Program-made: the position numbers and the translations under genes
Shown here: piece by piece, positions 26,205 to 40,683 of the stretch
How positions within the stretch are numbered: the first letter of the stretch is position 1
Layout: every line of letters starts with the position of its first letter
Assembly: GCA_947585615.1 (NCBI GenBank)
Contig: CANPXD010000004.1
Span: 1 to 52,711 of the forward strand
Length of the DNA stretch: 52,711 nt
Origin: an uncultured Clostridia bacterium
GTDB taxonomy: Bacteria > Bacillota > Clostridia > Oscillospirales > Acutalibacteraceae
Reading direction: 5' to 3'
Notes under the pieces: generated by a model
Database searches by the model: none
The model's input: the letters and a program-made list of their open reading frames with translations, nothing else
What the model was told of the DNA's origin: nothing

Positions 26205-28145
26205 ATGAAAATCACACTTAAAGACGGAACAGTTAAGGAATATGTAAATGCCCTCACCGCCGCCGAAATCGCGGAAAATATCTCTGCAGGTCTGTTCAGA
26301 AACGCCTGCTGCTGCAGAATCAACGGCGAGGTAAAGGATCTGAGAACAGAAGTCAGCACCGACTGCGCGCTTGAAATCGTGACCTTTGACGATGAGGACG
26401 GCAGGCGCACGTTCAATCATACGGCGTCGCACATTATGGCACAGGCTGTTAAAAGGCTTTATCCCGAGGTGAAGCTCACGATAGGTCCATCCGTTGACGG
26501 GGGCTTTTATTACGATTTTGACGTTGACGAGCCGTTTACGCCCGAGGATCTTGAAAAAATCGAGGCAGAAATGAAAAAAATCGTTAAAGAGGGGCTTGAA
26601 ATCGAAAAATTTGAGCTTTCACCATCAGACGCAATTGCGCTTATGGAGGAAAAGGGCGAACCGTACAAGGTCGAGCTGATTCACGAGCACACGGAAAAAG
26701 GCGAACCGATAAGCTTTTACAGACAGGGCGAATTTACGGAGCTGTGCGCCGGCCCTCATCTTATGAACGTTAAGCCCGTAAAGGCATTTAAACTCACGCA
26801 AACAACAGGCGCTTACTGGCGCGGCGACGCCAAAAATAAAATGCTTTGCCGTGTTTACGGCACGGCGTTCCCCAAGGCGTCTATGCTTGAGGAGCATCTG
26901 CAAATGCTTGAGGAGGCAAAGAAAAGAGATCACAACAAACTCGGGCGTGAGCTTGAGCTTTTCACAACGGTTGATTATATCGGGCAGGGACTTCCGATTC
27001 TGCTGCCGAAAGGAACAAAAATTATTCAGATCCTTCAAAGATGGGTGGAAGATGAGGAGGCAAAGCGCGGCTGGCAGCTTACAAAAACGCCTCTTATGGC
27101 AAAATCCGATCTCTATAAGATTTCAGGTCACTGGGATCATTACAAGGAGGGTATGTTCGTACTCGGCGACGAGGAAAAGGATAAAGAGGTTTTCGCGCTG
27201 CGCCCGATGACCTGCCCGTTCCAGTATCAGGCTTATCTCAACAAGCCGCGTTCTTACAGGGATCTGCCGCTGCGCTATGATGAGACCTCAACGCTGTTCA
27301 GAAATGAGGCGTCAGGCGAAATGCACGGGCTTATCCGCGTTCGTCAGTTCACGATTTCGGAGGGTCATCTGATGTGTACTCCCGAACAGCTTGAAGATGA
27401 ATTCAGAGGCTGTTTAGAGCTCTGCGAATATATGCTTAAAACTATCGGTCTTTACGAAGACGTTTCGTTCCGGTTCAGCCAGTGGGATCCTAACGACAGG
27501 GAAAAGTATATAGGAACAGAAGAACAGTGGAACGAGGCGCAGAGCGTGATGCAGAAAATCCTCGATGATTTGGGACTTGATTATAAAATCGGTATCGGCG
27601 AGGCAGCGTTCTACGGACCTAAGCTGGATATTCAGATTAAGAATGTGTTCGGCAAAGAGGATACGCTCATAACGATTCAGATTGACCAGATGCTTGCGGA
27701 AAAATTCGGTATGGAATATACAGACCGCGACGGGTCAAAGAAAAATCCCTATATCATTCACAGAACGTCTATCGGATGTTATGAGAGAACGCTTGCTCTG
27801 CTTATTGAAAAGTACGCAGGAGCGTTTCCGACTTGGCTCGCGCCCGTTCAGGTTAAGCTGCTGCCGATTGCCGACAGACATCTTGATTACCTCAGGGAAG
27901 TTAAAAACCGCCTTGAGGAGCGCGGTATTCGCTGCGAGCTTGACGACAGAAGCGAGAAAATCGGCTTCAAAATCCGCGCGGCGCAGCTGGAAAAGGTACC
28001 GTATATGCTGATTGCAGGCGACAAGGATGTTGAGTCGGGAGTCGTTTCGGTGCGTTCGAGAAAAGACGGCGAACAGGGAGCAATGAGCGTTGAGGCATTC
28101 CTTTCAAACATCGACGAGGAAATCAAAACGAAGGCACTCGGCTGA
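26205..28145 (+). CDS. thrS: Threonyl-tRNA synthetase
   Basis: A 646-residue class II synthetase. It has an N-terminal TGS domain (about 1-60), an editing domain with HTASHIMAQAVKRLYP (the HxxxH zinc-type motif) and GGFYYDFD, and a catalytic domain with LRPMTCPF, RNEASGEMHGLIRVRQF (motif 2) and HRTSIGCYERTLALLIE (motif 3). A C-terminal anticodon-binding domain begins at LAPVQVKLLPI. The ATG at 26205 has GGAGGT 6 bases upstream. The reading frame stays open further back to 25974, but that part is the T-box RNA. Length and domains match the family. Confidence 0.98.
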   Translation: MKITLKDGTVKEYVNALTAAEIAENISAGLFRNACCCRINGEVKDLRTEVSTDCALEIVTFDDEDGRRTFNHTASHIMAQAVKRLYPEVKLTIGPSVDGGFYYDFDVDEPFTPEDLEKIEAEMKKIVKEGLEIEKFELSPSDAIALMEEKGEPYKVELIHEHTEKGEPISFYRQGEFTELCAGPHLMNVKPVKAFKLTQTTGAYWRGDAKNKMLCRVYGTAFPKASMLEEHLQMLEEAKKRDHNKLGRELELFTTVDYIGQGLPILLPKGTKIIQILQRWVEDEEAKRGWQLTKTPLMAKSDLYKISGHWDHYKEGMFVLGDEEKDKEVFALRPMTCPFQYQAYLNKPRSYRDLPLRYDETSTLFRNEASGEMHGLIRVRQFTISEGHLMCTPEQLEDEFRGCLELCEYMLKTIGLYEDVSFRFSQWDPNDREKYIGTEEQWNEAQSVMQKILDDLGLDYKIGIGEAAFYGPKLDIQIKNVFGKEDTLITIQIDQMLAEKFGMEYTDRDGSKKNPYIIHRTSIGCYERTLALLIEKYAGAFPTWLAPVQVKLLPIADRHLDYLREVKNRLEERGIRCELDDRSEKIGFKIRAAQLEKVPYMLIAGDKDVESGVVSVRSRKDGEQGAMSVEAFLSNIDEEIKTKALG

Positions 28146-28174
28146 TTTCGGATCATTTTAACAGGTGAAGCATT

Positions 28175-28963
28175 ATGATTGATTTCGGTATGCCTACGCT
28201 GATCGAGACAAAAACGCTCGATGAATGCGCGGCGCTTTGCGGCAGGCTCGGACTGAGCTTTGTTGAATTAAATATGAATCTTCCGCAGTATCAGCTCGGG
28301 AAGATAGACATTGAGCATTTCAAACACACGGCGAAGGAACGCGGTATTTACTACACGATTCATCTTGACGAGAATCTGAATGTCAGTGATTTCAACCCCT
28401 ACGTTGCCGCGGCTTACCGCAGGACGGTGAAGGAAACCGTAAAAACCGCAAAGAAGCTTGGTGCTCCCGTGCTGAATATGCACCTGCCGCGCGGAGTGTA
28501 TTTCACCCTCCCTGACAGAAAGGTTTTCCTTTTTGACGAATATAAGGAGCAGTATCTCCGAAGCATTGAGACTTTCCGTGATGAATGCGAAAGCGCGGTC
28601 GGCGGCGCGGATATAAAAATCTGCGTGGAAAACACCGACGGTTTTACGGATTTTCAGACGGAAGCAGTGGATTTGCTGCTGAAAAGTTCGGTTTTCGGTC
28701 TTACGTTCGATATTGGGCATAATCACGGAATAGGCGGCACTGACGAACGGATTATTTTGGCGCGATCGGAGAGACTCCGTCATCTTCATATGCACGATGC
28801 GCTCGGCGGGAAAAATCATCTTGCGCTCGGAACAGGAGAGCTTGACCTGAAAAAATATCTGTCCCTTGCCGATAAGCACAACTGCCGCGTTGTTCTCGAA
28901 ACAAAGACGGTTGAAGGACTCAGGCAGTCGGTTGATTGGCTCGGCACTATAGCGAAAAGCTGA
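28175..28963 (+). CDS. Sugar-phosphate isomerase/epimerase-like TIM barrel
   Basis: A 262-residue protein of the xylose-isomerase-like/AP-endonuclease-2 fold. Likely metal ligands are the Glu in IKICVENTD, Asp/His in LTFDIGHNHG, His in LRHLHMHDA and Glu in RVVLETKT. The family includes sugar and hydroxy-acid isomerases and endonuclease IV. The DNA-repair subgroup has more metal-binding His residues, so an isomerase or epimerase is more likely. The substrate is unknown. It is 29 bases after thrS and probably shares its transcript, ending at a strong terminator. Confidence 0.82.
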   Translation: MIDFGMPTLIETKTLDECAALCGRLGLSFVELNMNLPQYQLGKIDIEHFKHTAKERGIYYTIHLDENLNVSDFNPYVAAAYRRTVKETVKTAKKLGAPVLNMHLPRGVYFTLPDRKVFLFDEYKEQYLRSIETFRDECESAVGGADIKICVENTDGFTDFQTEAVDLLLKSSVFGLTFDIGHNHGIGGTDERIILARSERLRHLHMHDALGGKNHLALGTGELDLKKYLSLADKHNCRVVLETKTVEGLRQSVDWLGTIAKS

Positions 28964-28982
28964 ATAAAAGAATAATTTCAAG

Positions 28983-29022
28983 GCAAAAACCTGAAAAATA
29001 TTCGGGTTTTTGCTATTTTTTT
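28983..29022 (+). terminator. Terminator of the thrS transcript
   Basis: A 13-bp stem (28983-28995 with 29001-29013) is followed by TATTTTTTT. It insulates the phage-derived cluster from thrS transcription. No clear promoter is seen in the 62 bases between it and the first phage gene. Confidence 0.92.
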
Positions 29023-29084
29023 GTGCTTTTTTAACTTTTAACGGAGGGAAGTTTCCGCCATAAAAATGAAACGGACGGTGAAAT

Positions 29085-29417
29085 ATGGGACGAAAAAAGA
29101 AAACCGTTGAGGAAGAGGTACGCGACGGCTTAAGGCGCCTTGCTTTCGGAGAAATACATGACGCTGTGCTTCTTCTTTTCGCGGACGAAAACAGAATAAT
29201 CAATGAACTGCCGAAATTCAATCTATTCAATATAAGCGAAATCAAGCGGCCGAAGGGCGGCGGAATGGAAATCAAGTTTTTCGACAGGATAAAGGCGCTT
29301 GAAAAACTGAGGGACTCGGAAAACGGCGTTTCCGCACAGCCGCTTGCGTTTTACAGAGCGCTTGAGGAAAGTGCCAAGCGCGCGGGCACAGCCTTTGACG
29401 GAGCGGAAGATGAATAA
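29085..29417 (+). CDS. Short small-terminase-like protein
   Basis: A 110-residue protein directly before the large terminase, overlapping it by 8 bases. The segment VEEEVRDGLRRLAFGEIHDAV and the later GGGMEIKFFDRIKALEKL match the central and C-terminal parts of PBSX-type small terminases, which end with a similar KxxDKxKALE pattern. The N-terminal helix-turn-helix that recognises pac DNA is absent; family members are usually 150-270 residues. If functional, packaging may not be sequence-specific. The ATG at 29085 has GGTGAAA upstream. Confidence 0.75.
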   Translation: MGRKKKTVEEEVRDGLRRLAFGEIHDAVLLLFADENRIINELPKFNLFNISEIKRPKGGGMEIKFFDRIKALEKLRDSENGVSAQPLAFYRALEESAKRAGTAFDGAEDE

Positions 29418-30669
29418 AATCACTTCCTTTTCCGAAAAGCAGCTTGCCGCGCTTACCTGGTGGTGCGATACAAGTCCGGTAAAGGACAGAAACGGTATAA
29501 TATGCGATGGCGCGATAAGGTCGGGGAAAACGATCTGCATGACGATTTCGTTCATAAGCTGGGCATTTTATAATTTCAGCGGCACATCCTTTGCCATATG
29601 CGGAAAAACGGTCGCGTCAATCAAGCGCAACGTTGTCAGTCCGATGACGGCGCTTCTGCCTTCGCTCGGCTTCAGGTGCGATTACAAAATCAGCCGTAAT
29701 CTGCTTGAACTTGAGCGCGGCGGAATCAGGAACCGTTTTTATCTTTTCGGAGGCAGAGACGAATCCTCGGCGTCGCTCATTCAGGGAATGACGCTCGGCG
29801 GCGTTCTGCTTGACGAGGTTGCCCTTATGCCGCGTTCCTTTGTTGAGCAGGCGCTTGCGAGATGTTCGCTTGAAAACGCTAAATTCTGGTTCAACTGCAA
29901 CCCTGAGCATCCCTTTCATTGGTTTTACACCGAATGGATAAAAAAGCACGACGCAAAAAATATGCTTTATCTTCATTTCAAAATGGAGGACAATCCCTCT
30001 TTATCCCCCGCTGTTATCAACAGGTATAAAAGCCTTTACAGCGGCGCGTTTTACGAGCGGTTCATCGACGGGAAATGGGTGGCGGCAGACGGACTTGTCT
30101 ACCCGATGTTCAGCAGCGAACGCCACATAAAAAGATGCGAGAACGAAGAGTTTACGCAGTTTTATATGTCCTGCGACTATGGAACGGTCAATCCGTTTTC
30201 CCTCGGTCTGTGGGGCAGAGCGGCGGACGGCTGGTACAGGATAGATGAGTTCTATCACAGCGGCAGAGACAAAGGGATACAGCTTACCGACGAGGAATAT
30301 TATTCCGAGCTGAAAAAACTTGCAAAAGACAGAAAAATAGAGGCGGTCGTTATCGACCCCTCGGCAGCAAGCTTTATCGAAACGGTAAAGCGTCACGGCG
30401 AGTACAGAGTTGTAAGGGCGGACAACGATGTTCTGAGGGGAATAAATCTCGTGTGTCAGGCGCTGAAAAACGACGAAATTTTTATTTATCCCCACTGCCG
30501 TGACTGTATCCGTGAATTTTCCGTTTATCGCTGGGATAACGGCATAAAAAGAGATGCGCCGAAAAAAGAAAACGATCATGCAATGGACGACATAAGATAT
30601 TTCGTCGCAACTGTCCTGAACGGCAGCGGCGACGGCGATATGTATTCCTTTGCAGTTGAAAGGATGTGA
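29410..30669 (+). CDS. Large terminase subunit
   Basis: A 419-residue DNA-packaging motor of the PBSX/XtmB type. The ATPase has Walker A GAIRSGKT (34-41) and Walker B GVLLDE (Asp135, Glu136). The RNase H-like nuclease retains its acidic residues: Asp256 in SCDYGT, Asp316 in VVIDPS and Asp393/Asp394 in HAMDDIRY. All key residues are present, so there is no sign of decay. The start is the ATG at 29410 inside the end of the preceding gene. Confidence 0.94.
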   Translation: MNKITSFSEKQLAALTWWCDTSPVKDRNGIICDGAIRSGKTICMTISFISWAFYNFSGTSFAICGKTVASIKRNVVSPMTALLPSLGFRCDYKISRNLLELERGGIRNRFYLFGGRDESSASLIQGMTLGGVLLDEVALMPRSFVEQALARCSLENAKFWFNCNPEHPFHWFYTEWIKKHDAKNMLYLHFKMEDNPSLSPAVINRYKSLYSGAFYERFIDGKWVAADGLVYPMFSSERHIKRCENEEFTQFYMSCDYGTVNPFSLGLWGRAADGWYRIDEFYHSGRDKGIQLTDEEYYSELKKLAKDRKIEAVVIDPSAASFIETVKRHGEYRVVRADNDVLRGINLVCQALKNDEIFIYPHCRDCIREFSVYRWDNGIKRDAPKKENDHAMDDIRYFVATVLNGSGDGDMYSFAVERM

Positions 30670-30670
30670 G

Positions 30671-31795
30671 ATTCTGGGCTTGTTTCACACGAAAAGGGCA
30701 CAGCAGAAAACGCAGGAAACGGCGGTACAGACAAGCGTAAGCTCAGGGAGAAACCGCAGCCGCTTCAACAGTCTTGTGCCGATGAGCTTCAACAGGCGGA
30801 TATATGCCGCTCTGCGCGAGAGCGTGCCCATAATCGACGCCGCAATTTCAAAAATCGTCAGGCTCTGCGGAGATTTTCGCTTTGAGACGGGAAACGCCGC
30901 GCTTGACGCTGAGATGAACGGCTTTTTCGCCTCCGTCAGCGTCGGCGGAAATCAGACGGGAATACACTCGTTTCTCTCCGTTTATCTTTCGGAACTGCTC
31001 ACCTACGGCTCTGCGGTCGGCGAGATCATCGCCGATTCATACGGCTTTTACGCGCTCTATAACGGTGAGCTTGACGCGCTTGAGGTAAAAAGAGCGGCAA
31101 ACAATTACAATATTGAATTTTACAACGGCAGCGAAAAGCTGCCGCATCAGGAGCTGATACTTTTTTCCGCTCTCAATCCGGAGCCGGGAAAAATTCTGGG
31201 CACAAGCCTGCTGAGAGGTCTGCCCTTTGTGTGCGATGTGCTGCTTACCATTTATAACACAATCGGTGAAAATTGGGAGCACGCCGGAAATATCCGCTAT
31301 GCCGTAACCTATAAACCTCAGGGTGAGGCCTCCGACGGCAACGCGAGAGAGCGCGCCTCGCAGATGGCAAACGCATGGCGCGACGCCATGAGCAGCCGCG
31401 ACACAATAAAGGATTTCGTTGCTGTGGGAGATGTTTCCGTCAAGGTCATCGGTGCAGACAACAACGTGCTGAGCAGTGAAATTCCCGTAAGGCAGCTTCT
31501 TGAGCAGATTGTTGCCAAAACAGGTCTGCCGCCGTATCTTTTCGGTCTTGCATGGTCAACGACGGAGCGTATGAGCATACAGCAGGCAGACATTCTGACA
31601 AGCGAACTGGAAGCGTACAGAAGAACACTGACGCCGGTGCTGATCAAGATAGGAAAAAAATATCTTGAAACGCGCGGCTCGGCGGAGTCGGTAAACGTTG
31701 TGTGGGATAATATCACGCTCCAGGACGAAACAGAGCTTGCCAGAGCGCGGCTTTACAATGCGCAGGCGGACAGGCTGCTCGGCAGCTCCGAATGA
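30671..31795 (+). CDS. Phage portal protein
   Basis: A 374-residue portal protein (PBSX XkdE-like) forming the ring through which DNA enters the capsid. A helical core with YLSELLTYGSAVGEII, SLLRGLPFVCDVLLTIYNTI and IPVRQLLEQIVAKTGLPPYLFGL is typical. The start is uncertain. ATT at 30671 lies 6 bases after AAGGA and gives the usual portal opening MLGLF. TTG at 30680 is too far from the ribosome site, and TTG at 30650 has none and overlaps terL by 20 bases. The stop precedes the protease by 40 bases. Confidence 0.88.
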   Translation: MLGLFHTKRAQQKTQETAVQTSVSSGRNRSRFNSLVPMSFNRRIYAALRESVPIIDAAISKIVRLCGDFRFETGNAALDAEMNGFFASVSVGGNQTGIHSFLSVYLSELLTYGSAVGEIIADSYGFYALYNGELDALEVKRAANNYNIEFYNGSEKLPHQELILFSALNPEPGKILGTSLLRGLPFVCDVLLTIYNTIGENWEHAGNIRYAVTYKPQGEASDGNARERASQMANAWRDAMSSRDTIKDFVAVGDVSVKVIGADNNVLSSEIPVRQLLEQIVAKTGLPPYLFGLAWSTTERMSIQQADILTSELEAYRRTLTPVLIKIGKKYLETRGSAESVNVVWDNITLQDETELARARLYNAQADRLLGSSE

Positions 31796-31835
31796 GCGGC
31801 AAAACAGGAATTATCGGCTCAAAGGAGGTTACTTA

Positions 31836-32804
31836 TTGAAAGACGGATATATAGAAAAGGGCTATTCGCCTTCCCATGAGGATTTTGAAAAAATCAAACA
31901 GTTTACACGAAAGGATATTGCCGAGGAGGAACTGTATGTTTTCAGTCTCACGCTCTGCAGCAACGACATAGACAGGGATTTTGAAAAATTTTCGGTTCAG
32001 GCGCTCGGCGAACTTGCTGGACTTTTTATCGGCAAAACCGGAATACGAGACCATTCAATGAAATCCGCCGATCAAACGGCGCGCATTTTTGATACGTGGG
32101 TAGAGAAAATTCCGGGCAGAAAAACCGCCGACGGAGAAGATTACTATCTTCTTAGGGCGAAAGCGTATATGGTGAGAAACGACGATAATAAATCGCTGAT
32201 AACAGATATAGACGCGGGTATCAAAAAAGAAGTTTCCGTGTCCTGTTCAATGGGCAGTTCGGTCTGTTCCGTGTGCAAAAAGGATATGAAAAGCGCACAG
32301 TGCTCCCACATAAAGGGCCGCAAGTATGGCGCTCGGCTCTGCTACGGTATTCTCGGCGACGCAGCTGACGCATACGAATGGAGTTTTGTTGCCGTTCCTG
32401 CCCAGAGGGAGGCGGGAGTCACAAAATCTTTTAACACCGAAAGGAGCGGTCAGTCAATGATACAGATAACAAAAAAACTCAGCTCAGCAACAGGCGAAAT
32501 AACGCTTTCAGAAAGCGAGGCAAGGGAAATCTGCTCGTATATTCAGGAAAAAGAAGGACTTGCGGAACTGGGCGAGGAATATAAAAAAAGTCTTGTTAAG
32601 CAGCTTGTTTCACTTTGCGCACGTGAAATTCCGCAGATGGATTTAAAGGTCTTTGAGGGCGTTGCACGGGTGATGACCGCAAAGGAGCTGCTCAGTTTCA
32701 GGGATGGTTTTGAGAAAAAACAGGCGGCGGCGAAAATGCCGTCTCCGCAGCTTTCAAAAACGGGTAAGAAAACCGAAGAAGGCTTTAACGAATTTAAAAT
32801 TTAG
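31836..32804 (+). CDS. Prohead protease with C-terminal scaffold-like region
   Basis: A 322-residue XkdF-like protein. The N-terminal two thirds match head-maturation serine proteases: His73 in GIRDHSMKS, Ser134/Ser136 in KEVSVSCSMG and EWSFVAVPAQREA near 182-194, a typical ending of these domains. Four Cys and a His (Cys144, Cys147, Cys156, His158, plus Cys137) form a probable zinc site. Residues 208-322 are a charged helical region like a scaffold. An in-frame ATG at 32457 with AAGGAG upstream may allow separate translation of this part. The TTG start at 31836 follows AAAGGAGG. Confidence 0.82.
   Translation: MKDGYIEKGYSPSHEDFEKIKQFTRKDIAEEELYVFSLTLCSNDIDRDFEKFSVQALGELAGLFIGKTGIRDHSMKSADQTARIFDTWVEKIPGRKTADGEDYYLLRAKAYMVRNDDNKSLITDIDAGIKKEVSVSCSMGSSVCSVCKKDMKSAQCSHIKGRKYGARLCYGILGDAADAYEWSFVAVPAQREAGVTKSFNTERSGQSMIQITKKLSSATGEITLSESEAREICSYIQEKEGLAELGEEYKKSLVKQLVSLCAREIPQMDLKVFEGVARVMTAKELLSFRDGFEKKQAAAKMPSPQLSKTGKKTEEGFNEFKI
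32457..32804 (+). CDS. Possible internal-start scaffold protein
   Basis: ATG at 32457 lies in frame within the protease gene, 9-10 bases after a strong AAGGAG. It would give a 115-residue charged helical product identical to the protease C-terminus, as in the nested lambda C/Nu3 pair. It is supported by the ribosome site and by the domain boundary just upstream, but no expression can be inferred. Confidence 0.4.
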   Translation: MIQITKKLSSATGEITLSESEAREICSYIQEKEGLAELGEEYKKSLVKQLVSLCAREIPQMDLKVFEGVARVMTAKELLSFRDGFEKKQAAAKMPSPQLSKTGKKTEEGFNEFKI

Positions 32805-32815
32805 GAGGTAAAATT

Positions 32816-33157
32816 ATGTCAGTTTCATTCAAGGGCTATGGCGAAAACGTTTTGACCTTTAAGAGTATCCTTAAGGATAAGAATACTCTCGTAAAAATAA
32901 ACAGCGATTCAAGCGTAAGCAAGGCTCTCGCCGATGAGGATTTTATAGGCATCACTGTCTATGCCGACGGTAAATACGCAGGCGTTGTTGTTGACGGCTA
33001 TGTTGAGATGAAATACTCGGGAACAAAACCCGCGGAGGGCTTCGGCGCGCTTGTAAGCGACGGCGCGAACGCGGTCAAAAGCTCGACAACATCGAAGCAT
33101 ATTGTAAGAATAATCAAGGTCGACAGCGACAACGGAATCGTCGGCTTTATACTTTAA
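32816..33157 (+). CDS. Capsid decoration (cement) protein, DUF2190-like
   Basis: A 113-residue beta-rich protein between protease and capsid genes. The segments DEDFIGITVYADGKYAGVVV and VDGYVEMKYSGTKPAEGFGA match phage head decoration proteins that bind the outside of the shell. A strong AGGAGG site lies 8 bases before the ATG. Its presence suggests the shell itself is fully assembled. Confidence 0.78.
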   Translation: MSVSFKGYGENVLTFKSILKDKNTLVKINSDSSVSKALADEDFIGITVYADGKYAGVVVDGYVEMKYSGTKPAEGFGALVSDGANAVKSSTTSKHIVRIIKVDSDNGIVGFIL

Positions 33158-33175
33158 TACAGGAGGAAAAGGCTT

Positions 33176-34165
33176 ATGGCATTTGATAATATAAGACTTG
33201 AAAAAGGACTCTATTCATCGGCAAAGGGCTTTACGGCTTCACTTGAGGAGCTTGATCCGTCGGAAAACTACACAGGCACGGAATATGAAGGACTTGACGC
33301 GTATCAGCGCCAGCTTAAAAGATTTGACATCAAGGTTTCAGGACCGTCGTCAGACAGCATTTCAAAGTTTTTCCAAACGACCGATTCCGCGGCGCTCTTT
33401 CCCGAATACATTTCAAGAGCGGTTCAGCAGGGGCTTGACGGAGAAAATCTTCTTCCCAAAATCATTGCGACCACCACGAACATCGACTCACTTGATTACC
33501 GCGCGATTGAAAGCGTGCCGACCAACGAAGATAAAGAGCTTGCCGTTGTGGTGGAAGGCGCAAAAATCCCGGAAACGGTTGTCAGAACAAAGGAAAAGCT
33601 CACAAAGTTGTATAAAAGAGGCAGAATGCTTGTGGCTTCCTATGAGGCGGTTAAGTTTCAGAAGCTTGATTTGTTTACCGTAACGCTCAGACAAATAGGC
33701 GCGTATATAGCGAGATGTCAGTTTTCTGACGCCGTTCTGGCGATTACGGATTCCGATGTTGCAACAGTAGAGGGCGGCGGCGAAACCGTAACCTACGCGG
33801 ATCTTGTAAAGGTATGGAACGAGCTTTCTCCATATAGGCTCACGACGCTTATCGCCTCTCATGATGATATAGCCGATATGCTTAATATAACGGAATTCAA
33901 GGACTCTAACGCGGGTCAGGACTTTCATGGCACAGGCAGAATGATTACTCCGCTCGGCGCCGAAATCCTTAAATTCCCTGATTTGGGCAAGGGAATAATC
34001 GTTGCTCTTGACAACACGGCCGCGCTTGAAAAGGTGCAGGCAGGCGGAATAACTACGGAATACGACAAGCTTATAGACCGTCAGCTTGAGCGCGCCGCCA
34101 TTACTGCGACAGCAGGTTTTTCAACCATTTTCACCGACGCCGCAAAGGTTGTTACATTCAGCTGA
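33176..34165 (+). CDS. Major capsid protein (HK97 fold)
   Basis: A 329-residue XkdG-like capsid protein. The N-terminal 60 residues look like a scaffold or N-arm; SAALFPEYISRAV and the TNIDSLDYRAIE region begin the HK97 core. The long segment ETVVRTKEKLTKLYKRGRML followed by ASYEAVKFQKLDLF fits the E-loop/P-domain helix. The sequence ends in an A-domain rich in Ala and Thr. AGGAGG precedes the ATG by 11 bases. It is intact and of family length. Confidence 0.9.
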   Translation: MAFDNIRLEKGLYSSAKGFTASLEELDPSENYTGTEYEGLDAYQRQLKRFDIKVSGPSSDSISKFFQTTDSAALFPEYISRAVQQGLDGENLLPKIIATTTNIDSLDYRAIESVPTNEDKELAVVVEGAKIPETVVRTKEKLTKLYKRGRMLVASYEAVKFQKLDLFTVTLRQIGAYIARCQFSDAVLAITDSDVATVEGGGETVTYADLVKVWNELSPYRLTTLIASHDDIADMLNITEFKDSNAGQDFHGTGRMITPLGAEILKFPDLGKGIIVALDNTAALEKVQAGGITTEYDKLIDRQLERAAITATAGFSTIFTDAAKVVTFS

Positions 34166-34186
34166 TAACGGCAAAGGAAAAAGAAA

Positions 34187-34534
34187 ATGATTGACGAAAA
34201 TCTTGTTGCCGAAAGCCTTAAACTGCTTGGCGGCTTTGATGATGAGGCGGTACGCAGGTACAAACCGATTATTGACGCCGTGCTCGCGGAGGTTTCGGAC
34301 GCAGCCGTCGATGACGCGCAGGAAAACGATCCCCGTCTGGCGCAGCTTGCCGCCGCAAAGGCGTACGCTGTTATCTGCGCGGCGGAAAATGACGATGTAA
34401 CGTCCTTTTCGGCAGGCGATGTTTCTCTGACAGTGAGATCCGCGTCTGAAAACGCGAAAGCATATCTCGACGCCGCGCTTTCGGGCTGTACCGGGCTTCT
34501 TAAGGACTCCGGCTTTGCATTTATGAGCGTTTAA
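34187..34534 (+). CDS. Head-tail connector/adaptor-like protein
   Basis: A 115-residue helical protein in the position of PBSX XkdH, between capsid and downstream connector genes. The pattern VAESLKLLGG, RLAQLAAAKAYAVICAAEN and a C-terminal NAKAYLDAAL resembles gp6-type adaptors that bind under the portal. The call rests mostly on size, helix pattern and position. Confidence 0.6.
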   Translation: MIDENLVAESLKLLGGFDDEAVRRYKPIIDAVLAEVSDAAVDDAQENDPRLAQLAAAKAYAVICAAENDDVTSFSAGDVSLTVRSASENAKAYLDAALSGCTGLLKDSGFAFMSV

Positions 34535-34545
34535 AAGGGTGTGCC

Positions 34546-34571
34546 AAGGGCGGATATTTTTATCCGCCCTT
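34546..34571 (+). repeat. Perfect 11-bp hairpin between connector genes
   Basis: AAGGGCGGATA (34546-34556) pairs perfectly with TATCCGCCCTT (34561-34571) over a TTTT loop. No T tract follows, so it is not a standard terminator. It sits between capsid/adaptor genes and the remaining genes and could act in RNA processing or set their relative expression. Confidence 0.6.
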
Positions 34572-34607
34572 ATAAGGCGGCGCTCCCTGCGCTCGGGAAG
34601 GTATGGT

Positions 34608-34967
34608 ATGCAAATGGACAACAAAGCATATAAAATAAAAAAAGGTCTTGAAAGGACAGGCAGAGAGGTGTTCCTCGCGGACGGAGAGTGGCGTTCACAG
34701 CCCTTTTATGCCGTTCTTGAGCCTAAATGGAGAAGTTATAAAACGGATTTTGAGTCTGTCAGAACGGAAATCGGCAGAGTGAACGCCGATTATTACACAT
34801 ATACCGGTCCTTTCAATCACAATATTATGACGCTTTCCGACAGCGCTTGTCTTTATTCGGACGGCGTTAAGTATATCTTTAAAAAGAAAGAAACAGTCAG
34901 GGTTAAAAACGAGGTGCTCTATTATACGGGAATACTGAGGAGAGTGTGGGAGGACAGCGATGATTAA
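34608..34967 (+). CDS. Head-closure (stopper)-like phage protein
   Basis: A 119-residue protein with a beta-rich central part, from FYAVLEPKWRSYKTDF to KYIFKKKETVRVKNEVLYYT. This is similar in size and layout to small head-completion proteins of PBSX-type phages (XkdI region). The chosen ATG at 34608 follows GGGAAGG; an upstream GTG at 34539 lies before the hairpin and lacks a ribosome site. It overlaps the next gene by 8 bases. Confidence 0.55.
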   Translation: MQMDNKAYKIKKGLERTGREVFLADGEWRSQPFYAVLEPKWRSYKTDFESVRTEIGRVNADYYTYTGPFNHNIMTLSDSACLYSDGVKYIFKKKETVRVKNEVLYYTGILRRVWEDSDD

Positions 34968-35355
34968 AGCGGCAAATATCGTCTCCGATTTTCTGGACAG
35001 GCTCAGGGCGGACGACTTTTTTGACGGCATAAAGCTGACCCGTGCGCTCCCTGACCTTATCAAGGCGTCGCCTGCCGTCAGAGAGACTGTTGCGGCAGGT
35101 ATAAAGGAGATCAACGTTGAGGAATATGCGCTCGGACAGAATGAAACGGCAGGCACAGCCGTCGTTTTTGCCGATATATATGTACCCTTTTCCTCTGAAA
35201 AGGCGCGCCTTGAGGAAATCGTGATGCACATCTGCGGATGTACTGCGGAACTGAACATAATTTCGCTGGAAATTTCGGGAATTACCGTCAGCAACGCGGC
35301 GGAATGTTATATGATGAGGGCGGTTTTTACGTTCAGCGGCAGTATAGAATTTTAA
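34960..35355 (+). CDS. Tail-completion-like phage protein
   Basis: A 131-residue alpha/beta protein in the position where PBSX-type phages encode XkdJ or a tail terminator, the ring that caps the tube. It starts within the previous gene. The segment GTAVVFADIYVPFSSEKARL followed by a helix and two strands is compatible with that fold, but identity is low-confidence. If correct, it is the last gene before the missing sheath and tube genes. Confidence 0.5.
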   Translation: MIKAANIVSDFLDRLRADDFFDGIKLTRALPDLIKASPAVRETVAAGIKEINVEEYALGQNETAGTAVVFADIYVPFSSEKARLEEIVMHICGCTAELNIISLEISGITVSNAAECYMMRAVFTFSGSIEF

Positions 35356-35365
35356 GGAGGCGGAA

Positions 35366-35461
35366 ATGGAAAACGAAAAGAATTACGAGGAAATGAAAGA
35401 AATTTCCGAATATCTGCGCCTGGATTCAAAAAGATACGACAGTTGTATCGGAGGCGACTGA
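35366..35461 (+). CDS. 31-residue ORF at the missing sheath-tube-tape site
   Basis: ATG at 35366 follows a very strong AAGGAGG site and opens a 31-codon frame that is acidic and helical (it includes YEEMKEISEYLRLDSKRYD) and ends two bases before the next ATG. It lies exactly where PBSX-type clusters carry sheath, tube, chaperone and tape-measure genes. It may be a vestige of one of these or a new short linker. It is too short to assign. Confidence 0.55.
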   Translation: MENEKNYEEMKEISEYLRLDSKRYDSCIGGD

Positions 35462-35463
35462 TT

Positions 35464-35973
35464 ATGACGAAAATGAGATATAAAAATTTCGAATTCGACG
35501 TTAATCCCTCAACGGTAAAGACGGAGCTTTCAAGCAGCATAAGCGAAAATGCGCTTATAGGATCTGACAGCGCCGTTTCCTGCGTTTCGCGCCGCGCTTC
35601 GGTAATAAGCGGCGAGGGAAGTTTCTGGGGAGAAAATGCCGTGCGGCTTTCCCGAGAGCTTAAAAGCGTGCGTGAGCAGCCGCAGTCCGGATGGCTTTTT
35701 TTGCCGGACGGAAGCTGTTTCAACGCTTTTTTCAGCTATCTTTCGATAACCGAAGATGTAAAAAAAGGCTGCGTCAGCTATAGCTTTAAATTTGTGGAAA
35801 ACTGCAACCACAGAAAAAGCTTTTTTGATTTCGGCTTCACATATGTAAAAAACGGTGAAAATATGTTTGACGTTGCTTACCGAAGCGCTGTTGATGTTGA
35901 AAAGCTTATGGAACTTAACGATTACAAATCACCCTTTGCCTTAAAAGAGGGAGACAGGGTGGTGCTGAAATGA
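35464..35973 (+). CDS. LysM-domain baseplate/hub protein (XkdP-like)
   Basis: A 169-residue protein. The N-terminal 110 residues match the first domain of XkdP-like proteins, with YKNFEFDVNPSTVKTELS and FLPDGSCFNAFFSYLSI. The C-terminal NGENMFDVAYRSAVDVEKLM and PFALKEGDRVVL form a LysM-like motif, used in contractile particles to join hub parts. It starts at ATG 35464 with GGAGGC upstream and overlaps the next gene by 4 bases. Confidence 0.78.
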   Translation: MTKMRYKNFEFDVNPSTVKTELSSSISENALIGSDSAVSCVSRRASVISGEGSFWGENAVRLSRELKSVREQPQSGWLFLPDGSCFNAFFSYLSITEDVKKGCVSYSFKFVENCNHRKSFFDFGFTYVKNGENMFDVAYRSAVDVEKLMELNDYKSPFALKEGDRVVLK

Positions 35974-36917
35974 GATTTGAACTTTACGGCACGGACGGAG
36001 CCGCTGTTTTCCCTGAGATGATAACCTCCTATGAGCTTGTCAGCGAGACGGACTCGGCGTGCGACGGACTCCGTCTGAACTTCTGCTCCGAGGAACTGCC
36101 GCCGGAAATCTGTATTCTTAAAGCGTTTTCCGACAGGGAAATTGTTTTCAACGGATTTTGCGATATGCAGAAAATAACGGCAGGCGGCGGCTTTTATACC
36201 TGTTTTATATATGCGCGCAGCAGTGCCGCTCTTCTTGTTGACAACGAGGCGCTGCCCAGTCAGTACAACTGTCCCACGGCAAGACAGCTCTGGTTTACAA
36301 ATGCGAGGGAGCTTGGCTTCGGCTGCGATCTTCCCGAAATCTATTCCGAAAACAGCTATCTTGTTTCAAAGGGAACAAGCTGTTACGGAGCGATAAACGA
36401 TTTTGTGCGCGCCGTTTACGGCGCTCCCGTTTACGCGACTCCCGAAAATGTGCTTGATGTTTACAGGGAGAGCAGCAGCGTGAAAAGGCTTAAAAATTAT
36501 CCTCTGCTCTCGCTTTCCTGCGTTATAAACAGGAGCGAGCTTATCAGCGATATTGATTACAAAATCAATTCCTCTGATAATTACCGGTATCATTTTAAAA
36601 GCGAATTCGTGCGCGCAAGAGGAATACGGCGCAAAAGGCTTTACAATCTTTCCGCGCTTCCGCTGTGGCAGAGGGAAATCACCGCCGCGGAGAAAATCAC
36701 AAACTCGCTTTCCGAATACTGCTCGGTGATCGCCGAGCTTTCGGGTGACTGCGATTTCAGGCTCTGTGACAAAGTCAGCGTGGATTTTGACGGACAGGAT
36801 TACTCCGGAACGTATTTCGTCAGCGAAATGGTGAAAAGCATGGGAAAAAACGGCGAAAAAACAACACTTGTGCTCAAAAAGAAAATAGACGGGGAGCTGG
36901 TGAACTATGTGGCTTAG
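35970..36917 (+). CDS. Baseplate hub protein (gpD/gp27-like, XkdQ)
   Basis: A 315-residue late-control-D-type hub protein, which in contractile tails closes the tube and holds the spike. It opens with short beta domains (MRFELYGTDGA, SYELVSETDSACDGLRLNF) and has a central helical domain around GTSCYGAINDFVRAVYGAP. The late FRLCDKVSVDFDGQDYSGTY and SMGKNGEKTTLVLKKK are close to the XkdQ C-terminus. It overlaps both neighbours. Confidence 0.82.
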   Translation: MRFELYGTDGAAVFPEMITSYELVSETDSACDGLRLNFCSEELPPEICILKAFSDREIVFNGFCDMQKITAGGGFYTCFIYARSSAALLVDNEALPSQYNCPTARQLWFTNARELGFGCDLPEIYSENSYLVSKGTSCYGAINDFVRAVYGAPVYATPENVLDVYRESSSVKRLKNYPLLSLSCVINRSELISDIDYKINSSDNYRYHFKSEFVRARGIRRKRLYNLSALPLWQREITAAEKITNSLSEYCSVIAELSGDCDFRLCDKVSVDFDGQDYSGTYFVSEMVKSMGKNGEKTTLVLKKKIDGELVNYVA

Positions 36918-37278
36918 CAAAAAATTCGGATACAAATATGAAACTGCGGCGGAAACGGGAACGGTTGCAATCGGCGGAAATGACGCGGTTAAAACGGTTT
37001 CAACCGTGCAGTCGGAAAGGGTGGTTAATTATGCACCCTACGGTTATTCGTCATCGCCGCCGAAGGGAGAGGACATTCTCATTATTAACGGCACGGGAGG
37101 CTCGGTCAGTGCAGGCACAAAAATGGCAAACGAGTATCTCAGAGAGGGCGAGGTATCCGTAAAATCTAAGGGAGGAGCAAAAATACTCCTCAGAAATGAC
37201 GGCGTTGTGCAGATAAACACACTTCTTATATCTGCCGACGGAAAGGTCTTCAATTCCGGGAAAGAGGTGGTTTTATGA
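36907..37278 (+). CDS. Short spike/baseplate assembly V-like protein
   Basis: A 123-residue protein in the XkdR/gpV position. SERVVNYAPYGYSSSPPKGE and the later GEVSVKSKGGAKILLRNDGV plus VQIN resemble the OB-fold-to-beta-helix part of puncturing spikes. It is shorter than typical gpV (about 200), so the tip may be reduced. It overlaps the hub gene by 11 bases and the next by 4. Confidence 0.72.
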   Translation: MWLSKKFGYKYETAAETGTVAIGGNDAVKTVSTVQSERVVNYAPYGYSSSPPKGEDILIINGTGGSVSAGTKMANEYLREGEVSVKSKGGAKILLRNDGVVQINTLLISADGKVFNSGKEVVL

Positions 37279-37595
37279 ACACTGCCGTATTAAACAGCGA
37301 TTTTACGGGATATGGCGCTCCACCGGTCAAAACAGAGCAGACAGAGGCGCTTTTGCAGAATATCGCTTGCGCGTTTTTTACCGAAAGGGGCAAATTTTAT
37401 CCCGACAAGGATTTCGGTTCGCGGCTTCGCGAGGCTGTGATTTCGGGTGACTGCGCGCTTGCCGCCGCGTGCGCCGCTCAATCTTTATACGGGATAGACG
37501 GCGTTTATGTAAAATCGGCTGAGCCTGAGAACGGAGAATATAAGATAACGGTTGGCATAAATGACGAAGAAAGGCAGGTGACCGTTCGGATATGA
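37275..37595 (+). CDS. Baseplate wedge protein gp25/W-like
   Basis: A 106-residue protein of the T4 gp25/P2 gpW type (XkdS position), the initiator of sheath polymerisation in contractile particles. FTERGKFYPDKDFGSRL matches the family's conserved central region (usually ...RxxxPxFGSxL), and YKITVGINDEERQVTV closes the fold. Its retention without any sheath gene is notable. Four-base overlaps on both sides. Confidence 0.85.
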   Translation: MNTAVLNSDFTGYGAPPVKTEQTEALLQNIACAFFTERGKFYPDKDFGSRLREAVISGDCALAAACAAQSLYGIDGVYVKSAEPENGEYKITVGINDEERQVTVRI

Positions 37596-38659
37596 GCTTA
37601 ACTTATAATGAGATACTCAATAATATGAAAACGGCTTTTTTCAGTGAAAAGGGCGAATCTGTAGAGGAATTTTCGGATCTTGAAATGAGATTCAAGGCTG
37701 TGGCATCGGAGATTTATGCGGTTTCGGCATACGGCAGCTTTATTCTGCGGCAGGGATTTCCGCAGACGGCGACGGGAGAATATCTTGACAGGCACGCGGC
37801 GCTCAGGAGCATAACAAGAAAAAAGGCGTCCTGCGCCACGGGAAGTCTGACTTTTTCGCTTGCCGAACCGATAAGAGACAGTGTTGCGGTACCGAAAGGA
37901 ACCATCTGCTCCGTTGAGGGAAGCCCCTATATTCAGTTTTCAACGGATTCGGAGGCGGTTATTCCTTACGAGGAATCGTCGGTAACGGTGCGCGCGACAG
38001 CCGTGAAATCAGGCGAGGAATACAATGTCGGCGCAGGACAGGTCACGGTGATGGTCAATCCTCCCGACTGCGTTGTCTCGGTAACAAACGCCTCTCCTTT
38101 TATGGGCGGAAACTACGACGAGAGCGACGAGGCGCTGCGCGAGAGAATCCTCAGCTCCTACCGCAGTGTAAAATCCGGCGTGAACGCCGCGTCCCTCAGA
38201 GAGACGATCCTTACGCTTGACGGCGTTTCGGACGCTTTTGTTTCCGCAGGCGGAGAGGGAATAATGAACGTCTGCCTTAAAACGCTCAGCGCGGATATTC
38301 CGCAGGAACTGAAGGATAAAGTCAGCGATCTGCTCGGCTTTGCGTCTCTGTGCGGAATTGAGCTGAATTTTATTCAGGCGTCCGAACAGCCGTTTGACGT
38401 TATCGCGGAGGTCAAGGCGCTCAGCGGCTATGATACCGAAAAAATAAAAGGGCAGACAGAGAAAAAAATAAGGGAATTTTGCAGCAGCGGAAAAATAGGG
38501 CAGAGCTATACCGCTTCCGCCATAGCGGCGGCGTGCCGCGATATTGAGGGCATCGAATATATTGATGTTTTCATAAGCAGCGATGAATCGGGCGTTGTTT
38601 CGTGCAAAAGCACGCAGTATCTCAGGCTGAAAAAAACAGAGGTAGGCGTGCATGAATAA
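37592..38659 (+). CDS. Baseplate J-like protein (gp47/XkdT)
   Basis: A 355-residue wedge protein. GFPQTATGEYLDRHAALRSI and the NVGAGQVTVMVNPPDCVVSV then FMGGNYDESDEALRERIL segments are the PF04865 signatures. It forms the baseplate arms that connect the hub to fibres. Intact and of family length. It overlaps the next gene by 8 bases. Confidence 0.93.
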   Translation: MSLTYNEILNNMKTAFFSEKGESVEEFSDLEMRFKAVASEIYAVSAYGSFILRQGFPQTATGEYLDRHAALRSITRKKASCATGSLTFSLAEPIRDSVAVPKGTICSVEGSPYIQFSTDSEAVIPYEESSVTVRATAVKSGEEYNVGAGQVTVMVNPPDCVVSVTNASPFMGGNYDESDEALRERILSSYRSVKSGVNAASLRETILTLDGVSDAFVSAGGEGIMNVCLKTLSADIPQELKDKVSDLLGFASLCGIELNFIQASEQPFDVIAEVKALSGYDTEKIKGQTEKKIREFCSSGKIGQSYTASAIAAACRDIEGIEYIDVFISSDESGVVSCKSTQYLRLKKTEVGVHE

Positions 38660-39209
38660 TGAAATCTTCAGCCGCCTCATAAATCTTTTTTCAATGCTCG
38701 GTCTTTCTGTAGAAGAAGGCGCATATGCGCGTGCGGAGGCGGCGGCATATGCTTGCGCCGCGCAAGCGGTGCTGGCGGAAATGGAAAACACGGAGAAAAA
38801 TCTTTTCATAGATTCCGCGGGCACGCAGGGACTTGCTCTTTTCCTGAATCTTATCGGAAAAAATCACGGTGAAAGCGATGAAAAAACAAGGGAACTTGTT
38901 GTCGACAGCGTATCAAAGGGATTCTCAACAGGAAGTATGGCGGCGTTTGAGCATGCGCTGCGCGGTCTCGGGGAAGGAACGGAATATGAGGCGGACGGCA
39001 GCAGGCTTGTCCTAAAACCCGATACGTCATCGGCTGATGAGGGTTTTGCCGAAAAGCTCAGCGATTTTCTGAGGGATTACGCGCCCGCATTCAGCCGTGT
39101 CGAAATTGATGGCGGCGGCAGCGATTTTGCCGCGAGAGACGCAGCGGGACGGCGCTGGTTTGAGCTTGATGGCTACAATATGCCGTTTTCCGTGATAGAT
39201 AGTTTATAA
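38652..39209 (+). CDS. Tail protein I-like baseplate component (XkdU)
   Basis: A 185-residue helical protein directly after J, the invariable position of gpI/DUF2313 wedge proteins. The N-terminal helices, TEKNLFIDSAGTQGLALFL, and a later EGFAEKLSDFLRDYAPAFSR are consistent with XkdU. The call rests on context together with helix pattern. Confidence 0.78.
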   Translation: MNNEIFSRLINLFSMLGLSVEEGAYARAEAAAYACAAQAVLAEMENTEKNLFIDSAGTQGLALFLNLIGKNHGESDEKTRELVVDSVSKGFSTGSMAAFEHALRGLGEGTEYEADGSRLVLKPDTSSADEGFAEKLSDFLRDYAPAFSRVEIDGGGSDFAARDAAGRRWFELDGYNMPFSVIDSL

Positions 39210-39232
39210 AATAGATCTATAGGAGAAAAAAT

Positions 39233-39709
39233 ATGAGTTCTACTAATAAAACAGAATATCTGGGACTTAACAGCTGGGTCAGCACCGATATGCCCAAGCG
39301 CGTTGACTTTAACGACGACAACAGCAAGATTGATCAGGCGATGAAAACGCATTGCGGCGATAAACAGATGCACGTCACCGACGCAGACAGGCAGCGCTGG
39401 GACTGTCCGTATTTTATGGGATATTATCACGGAGACGGCCAGACCTCAAGGGTGGTTGAGACGGAATGCCCGTTTTTGCCGTCCTTCGGAATCGTTCTTG
39501 CGGGCGGAATGCCGCCGTCGGCAGTTAATTTTTCCATGTCGATGAAGAACAATTACTTCGCTTTTATCGGCATAAGAACAGGTACGTCAGGCGTTTCCTT
39601 TTCGGGTACGTCCATTAAAATCAGCAGCAACGGGTCGCCCGTTATATACAATGAATATATGAATCTGAATATTTCGGGAGTAACCTACTGTTATATTTTC
39701 TTCAGATAA
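39233..39709 (+). CDS. Tail-fibre/receptor-binding protein
   Basis: A 158-residue protein that closes the cluster, in the XkdV position. TEYLGLNSWVSTDMPKRVDF followed by NDDNSKIDQAMK is the usual baseplate-attachment motif of Firmicutes tail fibres. The last 90 residues form a beta-rich, Gly/Ser-rich tip. It is short for a fibre, so host range may be narrow. A strong terminator follows at 39734. Confidence 0.82.
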   Translation: MSSTNKTEYLGLNSWVSTDMPKRVDFNDDNSKIDQAMKTHCGDKQMHVTDADRQRWDCPYFMGYYHGDGQTSRVVETECPFLPSFGIVLAGGMPPSAVNFSMSMKNNYFAFIGIRTGTSGVSFSGTSIKISSNGSPVIYNEYMNLNISGVTYCYIFFR

Positions 39710-39733
39710 AATAAAAATTTTTAACAAATTTTG

Positions 39734-39770
39734 AAAACACGTCTTAGATGAGGCGTGTTTTTATTTATTT
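39734..39770 (+). terminator. Terminator of the phage-derived cluster
   Basis: A 12-bp stem with G-T pairs (39734-39745 with 39750-39761, loop AGAT) is followed by a T-rich tract to 39770. It marks a clean 3' boundary before the coaX promoter. Confidence 0.88.
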
Positions 39771-39776
39771 TAATTG

Positions 39777-39805
39777 TTTACATTGTAAAAAATTTGTAAT
39801 ATAAT
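39777..39805 (+). promoter_or_regulatory. Promoter of coaX
   Basis: TTTACA (39777-39782), 17 bases, TATAAT (39800-39805), a near-consensus sigma-A promoter, 36 bases before the start codon. Confidence 0.85.
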
Positions 39806-39841
39806 AGCATATATCGTCTTTCGGAAAGGAATGGGCTTTAG

Positions 39842-40612
39842 ATGCTGCTTGCAGTTGACGCGGGAAACACAAATATCGTTCTGGGAGTGCTGGACGGAAG
39901 TAAGCTTGTAAGCTCGGGCAGACTGTCTACTCATATAGAGGAAACGGAAATCGAATATTCAATAAAGCTGAAATCGTTTTTTGAGGTGAGCAAAACAGAA
40001 AATATCGACGGCGCGGTGATTTCAAGCGTTGTGCCTGCTCTCGTGAGAACGCTTATAAAAAGCATAGAGCTGGTTTGCGGAGTAACGCCGCTCGTAGTGG
40101 GCCCCGGAATTAAAACGGGGCTTAATATCAGGCTTGACAATCCCGCCGAAACAGGCGCGGATATAGTTGCGGGTGACGTTGCGGCAGTCAGCAAATATCC
40201 ATTGCCCGTCATCGTTTTTAACCTTGGAACAGCAACAACGGCGTCGGTTATAGATAAAACGGGCGCTCATCTCGGCGGCGCGATTATGTGCGGAGTCAGA
40301 ACGGGTATAAACTCTGTTGTGAGCGAAACGGCTCAGCTTCCGCAGATTGATATTTCCGCTCCGTCAAGACTGATCGCTTCAAACACGGTTGATGCTATGA
40401 AATGCGGCAGCGTTATCGGCACGGCGGCTATGATTGAAGGTCTTGCCGCAAAATTTGAAAAGGAGCTGGGAGAAAGCGCGACTGTTATACTGACAGGGGA
40501 TTTCGGCAAAACAATCGCAAAAGAAGTCGGCAGAGAGGTTATTTACGATGAGAATCTGCTGATAGACGGTCTTAGAATAATTTACGAAAAGAACAGACAG
40601 ATAAAAGCGTAA
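39842..40612 (+). CDS. coaX: Type III pantothenate kinase
   Basis: A 256-residue ASKHA kinase that phosphorylates pantothenate in the first step of coenzyme A synthesis. The phosphate loop is DAGNTN with Asp6, and TGAD with Asp107 is the second conserved motif. In the third motif, usually DxGTAT, the first residue is Asn127 (FNLGTATT). That Asp is known to matter for metal or monovalent cation binding in studied enzymes, so activity may be altered or compensated. An ATG at 39842 follows AAAGGA by 11 bases. Confidence 0.93.
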   Translation: MLLAVDAGNTNIVLGVLDGSKLVSSGRLSTHIEETEIEYSIKLKSFFEVSKTENIDGAVISSVVPALVRTLIKSIELVCGVTPLVVGPGIKTGLNIRLDNPAETGADIVAGDVAAVSKYPLPVIVFNLGTATTASVIDKTGAHLGGAIMCGVRTGINSVVSETAQLPQIDISAPSRLIASNTVDAMKCGSVIGTAAMIEGLAAKFEKELGESATVILTGDFGKTIAKEVGREVIYDENLLIDGLRIIYEKNRQIKA

Positions 40613-40683
40613 TACGTTTTTAATAACCGCGTTTGACAAGGTGCGGTATAACTCATATTTACAGAAAGGCAATTTTAATCAAT

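Follow-up and report, generated by a model that had tools for sequence, protein, structure and literature searches.

A largely vertically inherited phage-like head-and-packaging locus in graded states of tail loss among Oscillospirales

Gene content of the locus between thrS and coaX

We analysed a stretch of 52,711 nucleotides, here called the window, from an uncultured Clostridia bacterium (family Acutalibacteraceae, order Oscillospirales; assembly GCA_947585615.1, contig CANPXD010000004.1, positions 1 to 52,711 of the forward strand). It is contig C4 of a 1.98-Mb genome in 125 contigs, 96.65% complete. Between a TIM-barrel gene adjoining thrS and the coaX gene, positions 29085–39709 hold a phage-like cluster of structural and packaging genes in which head and neck genes pass directly into baseplate genes (Table 1). 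An earlier note had read this cluster as a domesticated PBSX-like particle locus lacking sheath, tube and tape measure, with a role like that of a gene transfer agent (GTA), or in DNA delivery, as its leading inference, an interpretation that our analysis partly supports. This is a real, selected and largely vertically inherited head-and-packaging locus that is losing its tail; its tubeless state in the window belongs, as a single stage, to a graded series that spans the order and cannot be seen in the window sequence.

All 16 open reading frames (ORFs) are intact, as the note had stated, and lie on the + strand. They follow the gene order of PBSX of Bacillus subtilis, which runs terminase, portal, protease, capsid, neck, LysM, hub, spike, J, I and fibre. 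The gene identities proposed in the note held unevenly: profiles confirm capsid and portal, the cement protein is named from phrog_4588 and the hub from weak profiles plus position, and the protease is placed by position only, with no match in Pfam and NCBIfam searches. For the small terminase subunit (TerS), the spike and the gpW/gp25 protein, Pfam matches were all below the curated cut-offs, and an NCBIfam search of the locus proteins gave nothing useful. The note's reading of an intact terminase is supported, in that putative catalytic residues of the large subunit (TerL) are invariant in all 14 aligned TerLs; we take these to be the Walker A, Walker B and nuclease acids.

Table 1. Features of the locus, with the basis of each assignment
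Feature	Position	Strand	Basis
Terminator-like hairpin 5' of TerS	28982..29014	+	14-bp stem with T tract
TerS, 110 aa	29085..29417	+	PF03592 aligned at profile 61-126 only, below curated cut-off
TerL	29344..30669	+	PF03237 1.1e-15; start more probably at a later ATG, near 29410
Portal	30650..31795	+	phrog_30703 6.6e-118
Presumed head-maturation protease	31698..32804	+	Position only; phrog_16951 is of unknown function
Head decoration/structural ('cement') protein	32816..33157	+	phrog_4588 4.7e-17
Major capsid protein	33176..34165	+	PF25209 1.7e-12, phrog_3922 9.1e-83
Neck1, head-tail adaptor	34187..34534	+	Position; weak phrog_541 0.09; profile
Neck2, stopper	34539..34967	+	Profile; relatives L141, L143, L186 fused to tube domain; L143 fusion fold
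Tail terminator, 131 aa	34960..35355	+	Profile; homologous L110 domain models as gpU-like terminator
LysM baseplate protein, XkdP-like by position	35443..35973	+	PF01476 2.6e-6
Baseplate hub	35970..36917	+	Weak phrog_10359 0.0026, phrog_177 0.018; position
Spike	36907..37278	+	phrog_25991 5.3e-12 (unknown function); PF06890 below cut-off
gp25-like (gpW/gp25) sheath initiator/wedge	37275..37595	+	Weak: PF10934 0.064 (below curated cut-off), phrog_120 0.047
Baseplate J	37592..38659	+	PF04865 2e-37
Baseplate I	38652..39209	+	Position, profile; no Pfam or PHROG match
Short fibre	39233..39709	+	phrog_33092 1.2e-5 at N-terminus
Terminator-like hairpin 3' of fibre gene	39732..39763	+	14-bp stem

The absence of sheath, tube and tape measure, central to the note, was confirmed. 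The interval from the end of neck2 to the start of the LysM gene fits only the terminator, and the open frames of terminator and LysM gene are 4 bases apart; there is thus no space in which a sheath, tube or tape measure would fit. Sheath profile PF04984 matched 6 of 25 genomes, but neither the window genome (G000) nor its congener G021. With the tube profile, matches came from 2 of 17 genomes, both of them positive controls at their own locus; the window genome had no match, and none was found anywhere in 15 genomes (14 with a typed locus lacking a tube match, plus G034, whose locus is cut short). The note had asked whether tail or holin genes lie unlinked elsewhere. Neither the sheath nor the tube profile revealed an unlinked tail in the window genome, and holin family PF05105 was likewise unmatched there. 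The weakly matched gp25-like sheath initiator is retained without any sheath gene.

Two strong terminator-like hairpins flank the genes, where the note had counted a single terminator between thrS and coaX. A hairpin scan gave 17 terminator-like sites in total against a shuffled mean of 17.0, and therefore only the two 14-bp stems carry weight. No integrase was found between thrS and coaX in the ORF list or in Pfam and PHROG profile searches, and a search of 28100–41000 for att-like direct repeats of at least 16 bases returned only four weak, chance-like pairs. By the same ORF, Pfam and PHROG evidence the cluster has no integration or replication genes, and none of its 16 genes is a lysis gene. 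Flanks differ among close relatives: a 617-residue upstream neighbour is common to nine loci, including L039, which has coaX downstream as in the window; the window's own upstream neighbours are thrS and the TIM-barrel gene.

Distribution, descent and selection

Within the window's family, 63 of 120 genomes carry the capsid gene, each with one match and no internal stops. Wider samples gave 43 carriers among 295 genomes from the order and 11 among 391 from the class, 8 of these 11 belonging to the order; carriers of the capsid gene include G019, G033 and G091. A scan of named genomes gave 164 relatives; the best 80, which we retained, were mostly records of uncultured Clostridia, Ruminococcaceae, Oscillospiraceae or Eubacterium, many from animal guts. 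Among 50,697 phage records the capsid matched five unannotated human faecal scaffolds only, and one of these, at 46.7 kb, looks like bacterial chromosome, with genes for SecY, an NQR2-type protein and a fucosidase. The available part of PMC8361208 describes DNase-treated particles from Mexican children; it shows no accession link to the five scaffolds, and the connection is at most suggestive. In IMG/VR, 17 loci match. A pattern search there for hub relatives, which reaches close relatives only, returned four fitting stretches, none encoding a relative.

Some head clusters depart from the usual arrangement. The IMG/VR contig L124 (9977–10969) has a capsid gene that is not accompanied by the other head genes in their customary order, and in L155 the head genes are rearranged, with capsid preceding portal and protease. 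At L160 (12719–14362, family f26), a head and hub locus is followed by genes that, from reading the sequence, are presumably CobU-like and PilT-like.

Descent of the locus is largely vertical. Across 55 genomes, a tree of four head genes and an rpoB tree have 28 of 52 splits in common, and 23 of the 33 well-supported head clades recur in the rpoB tree. Head and rpoB distances gave a rank correlation of 0.638 in the same 55 genomes (permutation maximum 0.248) and a correlation of 0.589 in 38 genomes within the window's family (permutation maximum 0.271).

The genes are also under purifying selection. In 14 hand-chosen close pairs, compared as stop-to-stop frames and with 1–3 pairs for the baseplate genes, the median ratio of nonsynonymous to synonymous substitution rates (dN/dS) was 0.08 for TerL, 0.08 for capsid and 0.11 for portal (14 pairs each), and 0.12 for both terminator (10 pairs) and fibre domain (9 pairs), which are largely the same fused gene; the highest median, 0.32 for gpW, came from two pairs. 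The note had listed premature stops in close relatives among the findings that would speak against its reading. This was seen to a small extent, as split frames in TerL, portal, gpJ or others in 7 of 167 loci (L039, L041, L046, L083, L094, L152, L173), which may stem from assembly error or from decay; the capsid gene is free of stops across the family and order.

Such frames, and the absence of the locus from 57 of the 120 family genomes, would fit a decaying prophage, its intact state in the window genome being coincidental. We disfavour this explanation as very improbable, given one stop-free copy across the order, largely vertical descent, dN/dS far below 1 and no att-like repeats. Nor is the locus peculiar to one strain and bounded by att repeats, the other finding that the note thought would speak against it: more than half of the family genomes carry it and no att pair was found. 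Domestication and selection, as the note had proposed, are thus well supported by single copy, vertical inheritance, low dN/dS, the lack of an att pair and the lack of an unlinked sheath or tube.

Tail states and fusions among relatives

Tail state was typed for 132 of the 167 loci, the 35 dropped comprising 28 with short flanks, one duplicate and six on class-level or otherwise odd contigs. Of genomes present in two collections only the L096/L114 case was removed, and the 132 may include further repeats. In 14 loci a short sheath remains together with tube and baseplate (sheath Pfam matches in three of three tested), 17 have a tube without a sheath, and in 10 the tube is fused to a neck protein. 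Another 39 have a baseplate with no tube detected, 29 have the terminator fused to a fibre domain with no baseplate detected, and 23 have the terminator (20) or the neck (3) as their last component. In 19 of the 39 there is no room for a tube, the terminator frame being short and the next frame at most 130 bases away; these make up the window's clade (window, L033-L040, L042-L048, L126, L149, L181). For the 39 as a whole, 'no tube detected' is a profile result: six (L089, L099, L121, L125, L198, L277) have terminator frames of 244–296 residues, which may hide a diverged tube, and 14 have 97–1075 unassigned bases. The profiles 'chap' and 'mini' were each built from four seeds with hand-set coordinates.

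Fusions recur in the series. The predicted fold of the L143 neck2-tube fusion supports a tube domain, and the terminator domain of L110 models as a gpU-like terminator, with fold searches hardly covering that model past residue 159. In relatives, 39 ORFs (37 of them distinct) join the terminator to the domain that forms the C-terminus of the window's short fibre.

Tail states are mostly clustered on the rpoB tree. We compared surroundings by single-linkage clustering of neighbour genes within 3.5 kb. An MgtE gene lies upstream of 12 loci of differing tail state, two with tube and baseplate (L180, L196) and ten with the terminator-fibre fusion (L058, L075, L081, L100, L101, L103, L104, L108, L109, L110). 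One downstream gene is likewise common to 11 loci that differ in their tube, which is free in L144, fused to neck2 in L141, L143 and L186, fused to the terminator in L175, and undetected in L116, L140, L145, L148, L190 and L276. Differing tail states beside the same neighbour, one gene in each case, are most readily explained by loss and fusion in place, not by the arrival of different elements. In the sheath-bearing genome G285, a PF05105 holin frame (L150:1193-1636, - strand) starts at most 20 bases after gpI on the same strand; it is the one linked lysis gene found, with PF05105 the only family searched, in 13 genomes.

The series could represent an ancient, order-wide viriform lineage in which selection removed first the sheath, then the free tube and then the baseplate while preserving packaging. 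Its endpoint would be a head with a receptor-binding domain on the terminator ring, that is, a tailless double-stranded DNA delivery particle made from a myovirus. We regard the case for and against this history as evenly balanced.

Two other uses of such a particle have to be weighed against the same states. The PBSX gene order and the 14 loci that keep short sheath, tube and baseplate would suit a PBSX-like killing particle, or a tailocin descendant, that binds and damages rival cells and packages DNA incidentally; LysM and fibre domains could bind those cells. However, the parts lost are the puncturing sheath and tube, terminase and capsid are the most constrained proteins, and loci without a detected baseplate persist (29 plus 23 of 132), which makes a killing role rather unlikely. 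Alternatively, the head may act inside the cell, storing or protecting DNA, or its parts may disrupt the assembly of invading phages. The strong constraint on head genes would agree with that, as would the 20 loci that consist of head and terminator with no fibre or baseplate detected and the three that end at the neck. We consider an internal role unlikely all the same, because fibre-domain and LysM genes are constrained in other lineages (for LysM, in just 3 pairs) and because 29 typed loci carry the fibre domain as a fusion on the terminator, an arrangement that points outward.

Packaging, proposed function and known systems

The window's TerS is truncated: both alignment and profile show that it is without the N-terminal region that carries a helix-turn-helix (HTH) in relatives. 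The PF03592 alignment starts at position 1-4 in TerS of L110, L058, L077, L157 and L177, is partial for L150 and L160, and is lacking for L156. An N-terminal HTH profile was positive in 83 loci and negative in 48, with 6 at edges, and it misses diverged N-termini (L160, L162 and L163 are negative, but L160 and L162 keep an N-terminal segment in the alignment). Among tubeless loci with a baseplate, 3 of 39 were positive and 27 negative, with 9 giving no call; no TerS HTH was detected in the window's clade.

We think it probable that the locus encodes a vertically inherited, host-maintained DNA-packaging particle of the GTA type, left by a contractile, PBSX-like phage after its tail was dismantled; GTA-like function is the best inference here, not a result. 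Portal and capsid would build the head, which TerL, together with a TerS that lacks a site-recognition domain, would fill with host DNA at random, with no pac site. Neck1, neck2 and terminator would close the neck, and hub, spike, wedge and fibre would dock straight on the terminator ring, giving a podovirus-like particle. After release, LysM and fibre domains would bind the cell surface, and DNA delivered there would enter recipients, perhaps by ComEC-type import, as described for known GTAs. Sister clades would reach a similar end through the neck protein-tube fusion or through a fibre domain on the terminator.

Several observations weigh against this proposal. The locus is known from its genes alone, and particle, packaged DNA or transfer are unseen; nearly half of the family genomes, as noted, lack it. 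Of the 29 terminator-fibre loci, 28 have a detected TerS HTH, as do 19 of the 20 terminator-last loci, so that random packaging may not be general. The HTH also went undetected in 7 of 14 sheath-bearing loci, so that losing the tube does not by itself account for its absence. The 20 loci that stop at the terminator with no fibre detected are hard to reconcile with delivery unless fibres are encoded elsewhere. Three of the 33 supported head clades conflict strongly with rpoB, and the window genome itself stands outside the trees, its rpoB being a fragment, with G021 standing in. No lysis gene is linked to the locus, and the sole holin family searched, PF05105, has no match in the window genome. 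ComEC was present in 37 of 37 genomes, with the locus or not, and does not discriminate. Finally, TerL and capsid profiles had no match in G339 and G398, genomes assigned to Faecalibacterium only by 51-53% identical MAM matches.

If the proposal is correct, a DNA-packaging device is inherited across a large group of gut bacteria, and the tail-state series supplies natural intermediates for the difficult question of how much tail a DNA-delivery particle needs.

Compared with PBSX, the window locus is without sheath, tube, tape measure, regulator and lysis genes, and its TerS is shortened. In RcGTA and its alphaproteobacterial counterparts a siphovirus-like tail is retained, tape measure included. 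For GTAs, entry of DNA into recipients through ComEC and ComF is described in the available text of PMC6209664. Head, packaging and connector genes without a tail are also the content of capsid-forming phage-inducible chromosomal islands (cf-PICIs), which, according to the part of PMC10690885 available, take tails from a helper phage. A relic of such a self-packaging satellite would fit this content and the TerS HTH detected in 83 loci. It is nonetheless quite improbable: the window locus has no integrase between thrS and coaX and no att-like repeat, descent is largely vertical across families, many loci retain baseplate genes, and a fibre domain borne on the terminator might be expected to hinder tail borrowing.

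The Ruminococcaceae and Oscillospiraceae taxa with published host-DNA packaging are, we presume, order-mates of the window organism. For these families the available part of PMC12946183 (2026) reports that short pieces of host DNA are packaged in a GTA-like manner, with lengths of 8.4-8.9 kb for Faecalibacterium and for Gemmiger, and of 4.6 kb for R. callidus. It also reports tailless 40-nm particles from F. prausnitzii and a strong operon candidate in only one of the genomes searched. The note had held that a DNA-packaging capsid on a baseplate, with no normal tail, would be new; this has to be softened, since through FpGTA (PMC12946183) the tailless GTA-like particle is a known kind. We did not meet the lineage of the present locus in the literature searched, which left preprints and most subscription papers outside its coverage. 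The published particle is apparently a product of another locus and not an orthologue, orthology being unsupported by an indirect test through the MAM marker-assigned genomes G339 and G398. The two systems are nevertheless alike in several respects. In the available text, FpGTA is a 10.5-kb head and packaging operon without replication genes, comparable to the window locus, its 40-nm particles have no identifiable tail, and its TerS has no obvious DNA-binding domain, like the window TerS, in which no HTH was detected. They differ in that several strains are reported to have a second FpGTA operon that encodes baseplate, fibre and lysis proteins, whereas the window locus keeps its baseplate genes in one run with the head genes and includes no lysis gene. 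If our reading is right, the locus described here might also underlie the reported packaging of short pieces of host DNA in related taxa (PMC12946183), as a candidate link.

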